Part shown: piece after piece, positions 46,768 to 50,315 of the stretch | How the letters are laid out: each line of letters begins with the position of its first letter | Position numbering within the stretch: position 1 is the first letter of the stretch | Notes under the pieces: generated by a model | What the model was told of the DNA's origin: nothing | The model's database searches: none | The model's input: only the letters and a program-made list of their open reading frames with translations | Translations under genes and position numbers: made by a program | DNA from: an uncultured Atopobiaceae bacterium | Lineage (GTDB): Bacteria; Actinomycetota; Coriobacteriia; Coriobacteriales; Atopobiaceae | Assembly: GCA_947625405.1 (NCBI GenBank) | Contig: CANQOF010000009.1 | Coordinates: 1 to 64,000 of the forward strand | Reading direction: 5' to 3' | DNA: 64,000 bases

Positions 46768-46844
<77 letters not shown>

Positions 46845-46854
46845 GCCAACACGG

Positions 46855-46885
46855 AAGGCCGGAAGTCTTCGCGACTCCCGGCCTT
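46855..46885 (+). terminator. Terminator-like hairpin after tRNA-Pro
   Basis: AAGGCCGG ... CCGGCCTT with an inner AGTC/GACT stem and a TTCG-type loop, followed by CTTGC. It probably ends the tRNA transcript. Confidence 0.7.
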
Positions 46886-46903
46886 CTTGCATGAAAGTCA
46901 GGT

Positions 46904-46955
46904 GGAGCGCCATGAATGTGTGGAGGTTTCCTCCACTCGCGACTTTGGGCGCTCC
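46904..46955. promoter_or_regulatory. Nested inverted repeats upstream of RiPP precursor gene
   Basis: The outer arms GGAGCGCC (46904-46911) and GGCGCTCC (46948-46955) enclose GTGGAGG-TTT-CCTCCAC (46920-46936). They sit 60-110 bp before the precursor start and just upstream of a GATAAT hexamer (46972-46977) that could be its -10. Candidate operator or 5' RNA structure controlling the cluster. Confidence 0.4.
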
Positions 46956-47014
46956 GCGCGGATTCGCCGCCGATAATCGTGCCCAATGCCAGTGGCAATG
47001 CGAAGGGACGACCG

Positions 47015-47404
47015 ATGAACGCAAAGGTGATGCGCTTCTACGAGCTGGTTTCGGGCGATATCGATCTGCAAGGCGAGCTCAACGAGGTCATTGGCATCGT
47101 AGAGCTCAGCAGGGACGAAGAGGTGTCGCGCCAAAACATGGCGTATGCGCTCGCGGCCTTTGCGCGCGCGCACGGGCTCGACCTTCAGGCAGAGGATCTC
47201 CTCATGGCAGATGAGGATGCCAGGAGCGAGCACGAGCTCTCGGAAGACGAGCTCATGGCCGTGGCCGGTGGCGCGAGCGATTGTATATGCCCGGTCATCG
47301 GCGCCGCGAATGGCTGCGGTTGCTTCTTCTACGGCCAAGGCAAGGATCAAGAGAAGTACGGGTCGCCCGGCTGCATGGGCGTGGGCGCGATGCCCAGCAA
47401 ATAG
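47015..47404 (+). CDS. RiPP precursor peptide with Nif11-like leader
   Basis: 129 residues. Residues 1-86 form a Nif11-type leader (FYELVSGDIDLQGEL early, ELSEDELMAVAGG at the end), finishing with the double-glycine cleavage site at 85-86. The 43-residue core is Gly-rich with five Cys (90, 92, 101, 103, 120) as CIC, CGC and a lone C, ending GVGAMPSK. Two radical SAM/SPASM enzymes follow 15 bp downstream, so the core is probably crosslinked through its cysteines. AAGGGA is about 7 nt before ATG 47015; the longer upstream frame has no such signal. Peptidase and export genes are not adjacent. Confidence 0.82.
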   Translation: MNAKVMRFYELVSGDIDLQGELNEVIGIVELSRDEEVSRQNMAYALAAFARAHGLDLQAEDLLMADEDARSEHELSEDELMAVAGGASDCICPVIGAANGCGCFFYGQGKDQEKYGSPGCMGVGAMPSK

Positions 47405-47419
47405 CGAGATAGGAACCAC

Positions 47420-48844
47420 ATGTTTTACCGACTCAACCCCCGCTACCTCCTTCGAGGCTGGCAGCGGCTGCCCTATGGCCTCGTCGACCGCGAGACGGGG
47501 GTCGTCTCGTTCGTCTATAAGCGCCACTACGACGCGATCAACCTCGCCACGGGCAAGATCGATCTGAATCTCCCCGTCATCTCGCCGGAAGTGCGAGAGT
47601 CGGCGCGTGAGCTCGTGTCGTTTGGCGTGCTCGAACCCTGCGAGCGGGGCGAGGGAGCGCGAGATCCCGAGCAGGAGTACCGCTTCTTCGGCAACCGCTT
47701 CATCCAGTGCGCGCACTGGTCCATCACCGGCAAATGCAATTTCCGCTGCAAGCACTGCTTCATGAGCGCGCCGGACGCGAAGTTCGGCGAGATCAGCCAC
47801 GAGCAGGCGCTCGATGTGATCGACCAGCTCGCCGATTGTGGCATCTACCAGGTGGAACTCACAGGTGGCGAGCCCCTCATTCGAAGCGACTTCATGGAGC
47901 TCGTGGACGCGCTCCGCGCGAAGGGCATCCACATCACCAACATCTACACGAACGGCGCGCTCGTCACGGATGAGCTCCTCGACGAGCTCGAGGCGCGCGG
48001 CGTGCGCTGCGCCTTCACCCTGAGCTTCGATGGCGTGGGCTGGCACGACTGGATGCGCGGCATCCCGGGCGCCGAGGCCATGGCGCGCAAGGCCTTCGAG
48101 CGCTGCCGCGCGCACGGCTTCCCCACCGCGGCCGCGATGGTGATCTTCGACAAGAACAAGGACGTCCTGCGCGAGACGGTGCGCGAGCTCGGCAAACTCG
48201 GCGTGAATTCGCTGAAGACGAACCCCGTGGCCACGGCGGGCGAGTGGGTGGAGCACGAAGACGACGGCACCCTCACGATGGACGAGATGTACCAGATCTA
48301 CCTCGACTACATCCCCCAGTACTACGAGGACGGCCTGCCGCTTCAATTCCTCGATCTCGGCGGGTTCTTCAACGTGAGCCGCCAGCGCCCCGAGCAGTTC
48401 TGGGTGCCCGTCGAGCACCATTGCGAAGACCCCAAACGCACCTGCCTTTGCTCGAGCGTGCGCAACCAGGTCTACATCTCCGCCGACGGGCAGGCGCTGC
48501 CCTGCATGGCGCTCGCCGGCTCAGACGACGTGGCGCGCGAGGACTTCCCGAATATCTTCGACATCGGCCTCAAGGCCTGCCTTACCGATTCGCACTACAT
48601 GAAATGCATAGACTACCGCGTGAGCGACTTCGCGGCGGCGAACCCCGAATGCGCCGAGTGCGAGTATCTGCTCAGCTGCATCGGCGGGTGCCGCGGCGCC
48701 GCGCTCGACGAGGACCCCACGTTCTACCTAGGCCCCGACCACGCCACCTGCGGCATCTTCAAGGGCGGTTGGATCCCGCGCATCAACGAGGTCGCGAGTG
48801 CGGCATCCGAGCGCTACCTCGCGGGCGTGGGCGCGAAGGAGTAA
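47420..48844 (+). CDS. Radical SAM/SPASM peptide maturase 1
   Basis: 474 residues. The N-terminal about 85 residues look like a precursor-recognition domain (PqqD/RRE-like). The radical SAM core has CNFRCKHC (C106, C110, C113) for the [4Fe-4S] cluster, ELTGGEPLIRSDF for SAM binding, and a C-terminal SPASM domain with Cys at about 335, 342, 344, 362, 411, 414, 420, 424 and 444, binding auxiliary clusters. It probably forms thioether or other bonds on the precursor encoded just upstream. The next gene is a close paralogue 9 bp away. Confidence 0.88.
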   Translation: MFYRLNPRYLLRGWQRLPYGLVDRETGVVSFVYKRHYDAINLATGKIDLNLPVISPEVRESARELVSFGVLEPCERGEGARDPEQEYRFFGNRFIQCAHWSITGKCNFRCKHCFMSAPDAKFGEISHEQALDVIDQLADCGIYQVELTGGEPLIRSDFMELVDALRAKGIHITNIYTNGALVTDELLDELEARGVRCAFTLSFDGVGWHDWMRGIPGAEAMARKAFERCRAHGFPTAAAMVIFDKNKDVLRETVRELGKLGVNSLKTNPVATAGEWVEHEDDGTLTMDEMYQIYLDYIPQYYEDGLPLQFLDLGGFFNVSRQRPEQFWVPVEHHCEDPKRTCLCSSVRNQVYISADGQALPCMALAGSDDVAREDFPNIFDIGLKACLTDSHYMKCIDYRVSDFAAANPECAECEYLLSCIGGCRGAALDEDPTFYLGPDHATCGIFKGGWIPRINEVASAASERYLAGVGAKE

Positions 48845-48853
48845 AGGAGCACG

Positions 48854-50254
48854 ATGTTCTACAAGCTTAATGACGGAGTACTCCTCAGGGGTTGGAAGCT
48901 CCTTCCCTATGCCGTCGTCGAGGAGAAGACGGGTACGGCCGGCTTCCTGAGCAAGGACGCCTTCGAAGCGGCGCGCATGGCCACCGGCACCATCAACTAC
49001 GACCTCCCGCTCATCTCGCCTAAGGTGCGCGAGGCGGCGAAGGCCCTCGCCGAGGCGGGCGTCCTCCACGAGCTCGAGCCCGGCGAGGCCACCGGCCTCC
49101 GCCCCGAGCAGGAGTACCGCTTATATGAGAGCCGCTACGTGGAGCGGCTGCACTGGTCCATCACGGGCAAGTGCAACTACCGCTGCAAGCACTGCTTCAT
49201 GAGCGCGCCGGACGCCAAGCTCGGCGAGCCCACCCACGAGCAATGCATGGAGCTCATCGACGAGTTCGAGCGCTGCGGCATCTTCAACGTCTCGCTCACC
49301 GGCGGCGAACCGCTCGTGCGAAAGGACTTCCTCGAGATCGTGGACGCGCTCCTCGCGAAGGGCATCCGCATCTCGCAGATCTACTCGAACGGCAAGCTCG
49401 TGACGCCCAAGCTCCTCGACGAGCTCGAGGAGAGGGGCATCCACCCCGAGTTCAACATGAGCTACGACGGGGTCGGCTGGCACGACTGGATGCGCGGCGT
49501 TCCCGGCGCCGAGGAGGCGGTGGAACGCGCGTTCAAGCTCTGCCAGGAGCGCGGGTTCCCCACGGGCTCCGAGATGGCGATCCACGAAGGCTCCAAGGGC
49601 GTGCTTCGCGAATCGATCAAGCGACTCGGCGAGTGGGGGTGCAGTTCCCTCAAGACGAACCCGGTGATGCCGGTGGGGGAGTGGGAGGAGAACCGCCTCG
49701 GCATGCCCATCGAGCAAGACGAGATGTATCGCGTCTACCTCGACTACATCCCCGAGTTCTTCGAGGACGACATGCCGCTCGAGGTACTCAACCTCGGCGG
49801 GTTCTTCTTCGTGCGGCGCGAGCATCCGGAGAACTACATGATCGGGCTCGCTCGCAATTGCGAGCATCCCGACCAGCAGCTCCTTTGCGCGAGCACGCGC
49901 CTCATGGCCTATCTCTCGCCCGATGGCACGCTCCTTCCGTGCATTCCGATCGCGGGCAACGAGGAGGCCACGAAGGACTTTCCGAACGTGTTTGAGGAGG
50001 GGATTGCGGCGGCGCTCGACGATCCGCGGTATCGAAACGCCGTGGACTGCCGCGTACAAGCCTTCCTCGACGCGAATCCCGAGTGCCTCGAGTGCGAGTA
50101 CATGCGGCAGTGCGCAGGGGGCTGCCGCGCCCACGCCCTCAACGAAGATCCCACGAACTACCTCGGCAAAGACCCCATCGTCTGCGACTTCTACAAGTCC
50201 GGCTGGTCGGAGCGAGTGAAAGAGGTGGCCGACGCCGCCCTCGCGACTTTGTAG
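48854..50254 (+). CDS. Radical SAM/SPASM peptide maturase 2
   Basis: 466 residues, collinear with and clearly homologous to maturase 1 over the full length. N-terminal recognition domain, CNYRCKHC (C107, C111, C114), SLTGGEPLVRKDF, SPASM cysteines such as NCEHPDQQLLC, LPCIPIAG, CLECEYMRQCAGGC and PIVCDFYKSGW. Divergence from the paralogue is spread throughout, with all cluster ligands kept, so both should be active. A true terminator follows, closing the three-gene unit. Confidence 0.88.
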   Translation: MFYKLNDGVLLRGWKLLPYAVVEEKTGTAGFLSKDAFEAARMATGTINYDLPLISPKVREAAKALAEAGVLHELEPGEATGLRPEQEYRLYESRYVERLHWSITGKCNYRCKHCFMSAPDAKLGEPTHEQCMELIDEFERCGIFNVSLTGGEPLVRKDFLEIVDALLAKGIRISQIYSNGKLVTPKLLDELEERGIHPEFNMSYDGVGWHDWMRGVPGAEEAVERAFKLCQERGFPTGSEMAIHEGSKGVLRESIKRLGEWGCSSLKTNPVMPVGEWEENRLGMPIEQDEMYRVYLDYIPEFFEDDMPLEVLNLGGFFFVRREHPENYMIGLARNCEHPDQQLLCASTRLMAYLSPDGTLLPCIPIAGNEEATKDFPNVFEEGIAAALDDPRYRNAVDCRVQAFLDANPECLECEYMRQCAGGCRAHALNEDPTNYLGKDPIVCDFYKSGWSERVKEVADAALATL

Positions 50255-50283
50255 GCTCCGTGCGGCTTCGATCGTTTTTTGAG

Positions 50284-50315
50284 CGGCCGATCGCCTCGTG
50301 CGATCGGCCGTTTTT
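50284..50315 (+). terminator. Terminator of RiPP cluster
   Basis: CGGCCGATCGC-CTCGT-GCGATCGGCCG followed by TTTTT, 30 nt after the second maturase stop: a canonical intrinsic terminator. Confidence 0.9.

Follow-up and report, generated by a model that had tools for sequence, protein, structure and literature searches.

A Nif11-like precursor family and two paralogous radical SAM/SPASM maturases in gut Atopobiaceae: a candidate system for Cys-Gly thioether peptides matured in trans

Several described peptide systems resemble parts of the locus studied here. In streptosactin, the crosslink is an S-C-alpha bond between Cys31 and Gly34. Ruminococcin C carries nested bonds with CxC cysteines as donors and has two maturases, RumMC1/2. 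Two SPASM enzymes are likewise used in the thuricin CD pathway, where TrnC and TrnD form one working complex. The many precursors of the prochlorosins, which have Nif11 leaders, are scattered singly and share one maturation activity, that of the LanM synthetase ProcM, which dehydrates Ser/Thr.

We analyzed a stretch of 64,000 nucleotides (the window) on contig C9 of a rabbit-gut uncultured Atopobiaceae genome (G000; 1.72 Mb, 33 contigs), which was searched with selected queries and compared with five other genomes of the genus (G001 to G005). Three genes lie on the + strand of the window: a RiPP precursor gene with an ATG start (47015-47404, 129 aa), the radical SAM/SPASM maturase A (47420-48844, 474 aa) and the radical SAM/SPASM maturase B (48854-50254, 466 aa). 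The gaps between them are 15 nt and 9 nt. A Rho-independent terminator follows on the same strand (50281-50313); its hairpin (-27.1 kcal/mol, z -4.1), with a U run 3′ of it, was overlooked by a simple scan and recovered by folding. The precursor length, the Cys numbering, the GG position, the two SPASM genes and the terminator of an earlier note on this DNA were thus all found in place. In G004, which represents a second species, a precursor 95% identical to that of the window lies upstream of the same two maturase genes, and ten further full-length homologues are present in G000; the locus is therefore not a product of chance.

The precursor consists of a leader, residues 1-86 (47015-47272), which is Nif11-like (ELSEDELMAVAGG up to residue 86) and ends in VAGG, and a 43-residue core, residues 87-129 (47273-47401), with Cys at 90, 92, 101, 103 and 120. 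The Nif11-type leader model TIGR03798 matched residues 38-86 with 31.5 bits, just under its cut-off of 32.3. An AlphaFold2 model of the precursor had helices between residues 3 and 83, with a pLDDT of mostly about 90, and a disordered core. A fold search with this model gave nothing significant. When precursors were aligned, three units were recognized in the core: C90-x-C92-x3-G96 (47282-47302), C101-x-C103-x3-G107 (47315-47335) and a single-Cys form, C120-x3-G124 (47372-47386). C92, G96, C103, G107 and C120 were invariant among 39 precursors and C90 was nearly so; C101 was replaced by Ser or Ala in four of those aligned. In the third unit, Gly was at the +4 position in 27 of 34 cores. For the CxC modules of Atopobiaceae, Gly was found at +4 in all of 65, at +6 in 12%, and the positions +1 to +3 were chiefly V, I, F or L. 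The C-x3-D/E pattern of ranthipeptides was not found, as the earlier note had said of CxxxD.

The relatives of the two enzymes put this core in a wider context. Those closest to them, at 92% and 74% identity, are from uncultured Atopobiaceae in rabbit metagenomes; others are from Lachnospiraceae, Oscillospiraceae, Synergistaceae and further groups, mostly from the guts of rabbits, ruminants and birds. Many of these relatives are adjoined by precursors in which a Nif11-like or short GG leader is followed by three C-x-C-x3-G-x-G modules. For example, one SPASM enzyme is followed by ten tandem precursors, each with three CxC modules, in a rabbit Marvinbryantia metagenome-assembled genome (L101 7423-11304). 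When TIGR03798 was applied to relatives with a modular core, three passed (34.7, 42.0 and 44.4 bits), two were under the cut-off and one had no match. Among the 153 modules of the 50 cores that survived a similarity filter, Gly was at +4 from the second Cys in 142 (93%) and at +6 in 148 (97%), against a background of 0.23; it was at +3 and at +5 in about half. The p-values computed for these counts take related sequences to be independent and are descriptive only. More remote members, from Desulfotruncus, Desulfosporosinus and Treponema, have single C-x3-G units. C-x3-G is thus the unit that these peptides have in common. By these alignments, three modules make up the window core, in a degenerate and reduced form; what stays invariant in Atopobiaceae is C-x3-G. 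Its CIC/CGC/C spacing, which had been thought to match no known product, is a degenerate form of a widespread pattern.

Both maturases scored above the Pfam cut-offs for Radical_SAM and SPASM. The CxxxCxxC cysteines, reported earlier as intact in both, and most SPASM cysteines were invariant in an alignment of 40 relatives. A and B are tandem paralogues, 53% identical to each other, and look like a duplication within the lineage. In a first tree, cores holding two or more full modules were beside 28 of 43 enzymes of one clade (the CxC clade) but beside only 1 of 27 enzymes outside it. The split that defines this clade was weakly supported, and A and B were on the other side of it. In a second tree, which had fewer rows and to which other SPASM enzymes of the genus were added, A and B were sisters, joined next by a SPASM enzyme of contig C4 (C4-type), inside the CxC clade (96% SH-aLRT), while a SPASM enzyme of contig C7 (C7-type) was outside it (100% SH-aLRT). 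The exact placement of A and B in these trees is not beyond doubt. Because many related SPASM enzymes, at about 40-45% identity, accompany precursors without the motif, the motif and the enzyme are not strictly tied.

The C4-type enzyme of G000 (C4:120243-122092; L079 6244-8093) is the third SPASM enzyme of the genome and is related to A and B. It has its own conserved precursor ending in MGLPGDQCSLFGVDDEPMILWY; the same precursor is present in G001, G003 and G005, and this is a separate small RiPP system. The C7-type enzyme of G000 (L076 6988-9971), a fourth and distant SPASM enzyme, lies next to a conserved Nif11 peptide, a CxC precursor fragment that lacks a leader and a complete CxC precursor.

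An AlphaFold2 model of maturase A (pLDDT 91.9) contained RRE, radical SAM and SPASM domains; in the N-terminal RRE-like domain (47420-47689, + strand), strands and helices are ordered as in an RRE. The best matches among solved folds were SkfB (Z 26.0, model residues 7-429) and SuiB (Z 25.6, residues 3-445), and both alignments cover this N-terminal domain. anSME and CteB were fold matches to the catalytic part. SkfB was also the best solved relative in a sequence search (60.0 bits, E 1.8e-15). These matches to solved structures indicate the fold and not the reaction. Scores against models of known sactisynthases were 66.7 bits for AlbA (cut-off 850) and 82.3 bits for StsB (cut-off 625); both are below the cut-offs, which makes membership in a known sactipeptide class less likely and does not lower the chance that A works like a sactisynthase. 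Membership in TIGR04103, Nif11-class peptide radical SAM maturase 3, was rejected (77.3 bits; cut-off 725).

The chemistry we consider most likely from the motif and these matches is the formation of thioethers from Cys sulfur to Gly C-alpha, nested in full modules. The precursors, about a dozen and scattered, would be bound through their common Nif11-like leader by the RRE-like N-terminal domains of A and B. In each C-x3-G unit, the Gly would lose its H-alpha to the enzymes and be joined to the Cys sulfur in an S-C-alpha thioether, i to i+4. With Gly as the acceptor, the bond is of necessity at C-alpha. In C-x-C-x3-G-x-G, the outer Cys and the outer Gly (i, i+8) would form a second, nested bond; nested hairpin thioethers would call for such a mirror layout of C-x-C, x3 and G-x-G, the inner from i+2 to i+6 and the outer from i to i+8. 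The outer Cys/Gly pair is partly lost in Atopobiaceae, and three inner bonds, C92-G96, C103-G107 and C120-G124, would be expected in the window product. A and B may divide this labour between them. The earlier note had proposed that the linkage could be new. The type of bond need not be, because the closest solved relative is the sactisynthase SkfB and a Gly acceptor allows C-alpha only; what stands as new is the motif and the genome-wide arrangement in trans.

The conservation of Gly could also reflect a need for turns and not its use as an acceptor. Sactisynthases take varied acceptors (Asn, Ala, Lys and Arg in ruminococcin C), and the mostly V, I, F or L residues at +1 to +3 in Atopobiaceae would suit thioethers to side-chain carbons of the ranthipeptide type, with Gly only shaping the turn. 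We regard acceptors different from the conserved Gly as unlikely. Near-invariance is found at +4 (and +6) only, in phyla as distant as Synergistota and Actinomycetota, and A matches StsB, AlbA and SkfB while the PapB model is absent from its 25 best matches, the last of which scores 56.7 bits. The Cys-rich cores might instead bind metal or an Fe-S cluster, with the radical SAM enzymes making another change such as epimerization or a C-C bond. CxC pairs are frequent metal ligands, SPASM enzymes catalyze many types of reaction, and the fold match of A to SuiB is nearly as good as that to SkfB. The replacement of C101 by Ser or Ala speaks against such a role, the near-invariant Cys-Gly spacing suits a crosslink better than a set of ligands, and the GG leader together with the NHLM exporter described below indicates secretion; we therefore consider metal binding very unlikely and return to Cys-Gly thioethers as the preferred chemistry.

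The precursor query gave 14 matches in G000 and 5-13 in each of the other five genomes, with 13 in G001, 11 in G004 and weak matches in G002. Full-length precursors of the form CxC...(C)xC...C numbered 11 in G000, the window copy included, on seven contigs: C1, C6 (two), C7, C8, C9 (the window), C13 (four) and C16. A truncated copy and a copy with a CDC core were on C7 and C13. The precursors are solitary or in small arrays amid unrelated genes. In a search of 140 Atopobiaceae genomes with a profile of the family, strong matches were in this genus only. Paralogues other than that of the window share 72% identity in leaders and 39% in cores, while the window precursor is divergent, with a leader 55% identical to theirs.

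Other peptides were seen in G000. One at C10:58754 (L196) combines a Nif11-like leader with a core that is free of Cys and rich in Lys (GNIFTDIWSGIKKGFDDLGDTLSKVGQDIYGGVKKLLKK) and is possibly a linear bacteriocin that uses the same exporter. Several Cys-free GG-motif peptides of 50-96 aa surround the two CxC precursors of contig C6 (L074 7621-10234), near genes that read as integrase-like and phage-type repressor-like.

The A/B pair is single copy in G000, G003 and G004, and G002 has a B orthologue that ends close to a contig edge. In G003, the pair has no adjacent precursor, and precursors are present elsewhere in that genome. The site at which the pair stands in the window is vacant in G003, where malK and tRNA-Pro(cgg) are followed directly by a HAD gene. 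By this comparison, the insert in the window extends from about 46863 to 50297, with the tRNA-Pro(cgg) gene (46768-46844, + strand), which is outside the pathway, at its left border. A mobile island at tRNA-Pro was considered and rejected: the insertion is real but BLAST found no terminal repeats at both ends, and no integrase was seen adjoining it. The self-contained cluster that had been proposed for the window is thus not upheld, as G000 holds 11 such precursors and the enzyme pair is also found where no precursor adjoins it. With 11 precursors to one A/B pair, and with the G003 pair lacking a neighbouring precursor while the window site is empty, the data are most simply read as processing in trans, and all the scattered precursors are probably matured by one A/B pair.

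It is also conceivable that A and B serve the adjacent precursor only, while the dispersed ones have a different maturase, for example the C7-type, or remain unmodified as disulfide bacteriocins. The divergence of the window leader would fit this, and in G000 and G001 a C7-type enzyme is found close to CxC precursors. Moreover, the A/B pair was not found in the G001 assembly (91% complete) despite its 13 precursor matches; a gap in the assembly at this point is possible, as the HAD orthologue that neighbours the pair is likewise absent. The C7-type enzyme is, however, a rival only, because it is outside the CxC clade. In G002 it has its own, dissimilar precursor, and in G000 and G003 it is accompanied by a conserved Nif11 peptide; no C7-type enzyme was found in G004, which has both the precursors and A/B. 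In G003, the pair must act on distant precursors or be idle. Local use of A and B is, in our view, improbable, and maturation in trans is preferred.

The sole NHLM peptidase/permease/ATPase pair with a C39 domain in G000 lies on contig C1, with a CxC precursor about 7 kb away (TIGR03796, 908.5 bits, cut-off 853.3; TIGR03797, 728.5 bits, cut-off 709.4). This single exporter would cleave after GG and export the products, which may have an antibacterial or signalling role. No C39 exporter was found in the incomplete assemblies of G004 and G005. A GG peptide of 51-53 aa (MDKKQ...VIGGVN...KPLF) adjoins the exporter in G000 (L187 2092-2244) and the A/B pair in G003 (L089 3195-3353).

We lean modestly toward the explanation as a whole, a radical-SAM RiPP system that acts in trans, makes Cys-Gly S-C-alpha thioethers and uses one NHLM exporter. 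We propose only tentatively, at somewhat less than even confidence, that it belongs to an unnamed and widespread gut RiPP family with nested Cys-Gly alpha-thioether hairpins, of which one Atopobiaceae genus has made a genome-wide in-trans library, with two duplicated maturases and a dozen scattered precursors, as a radical-SAM counterpart of the prochlorosins. If so, it would be a natural combinatorial library for radical-SAM RiPPs, in which one promiscuous enzyme pair meets many natural substrates that retain the reactive C-x3-G frame while their loops vary; one could then test directly how tolerant the enzymes are of their substrates, which rule governs the acceptor and whether two paralogous enzymes are needed. 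With C-x-C-x3-G-x-G as a signature, gut and rumen members of the same family can be located in Lachnospiraceae, Oscillospiraceae, Synergistaceae and other groups.

A Nif11-like precursor with two radical SAM/SPASM maturases, as first proposed for this locus, is supported. NCBIfam 20.0 held no model for the core motif or the enzymes beyond the general leader model, in agreement with the view that no named class covers them, and no such core or arrangement was described in the full-text literature searched, which mostly excludes subscription journals. Taken singly, Nif11 leaders, SPASM maturases, NHLM export and in-trans precursors are familiar; within that literature and NCBIfam, their combination is new, as is the motif.

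Compared with sactipeptides (ruminococcin C, streptosactin and SKF, with RumMC1/2, GggB and SkfB), the window system has in common a radical SAM-SPASM enzyme and a Cys-containing core. It shares the presence of two maturases with thuricin CD and ruminococcin C, CxC in the core with the latter, and a putative Cys-Gly S-C-alpha bond with streptosactin. It differs in its modular C-x-C-x3-G-x-G or C-x3-G motif, its Nif11 leader, its NHLM export and its many scattered precursors for one enzyme pair, and it reaches no sactisynthase cut-off. Ranthipeptides (freyrasin with PapB, thermocellin with CteB) also have SPASM enzymes and short-range thioethers, which are putative in the window system, and the C-x3-X spacing is as in CxxxD. 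However, the conserved +4 residue of the present family, Gly, lacks both beta and gamma carbons, and PapB and CteB match A less well than SkfB and StsB do. The TIGR04103 enzymes are likewise radical SAM partners of a Nif11-type leader, but A is far under the cut-off of that model. The prochlorosins (ProcM) are alike in their conserved Nif11-type leader, variable core, GG motif and singly scattered precursors. They use a LanM enzyme, whereas the window locus has a radical SAM/SPASM pair, a conserved core framework and a gut anaerobe as its host.
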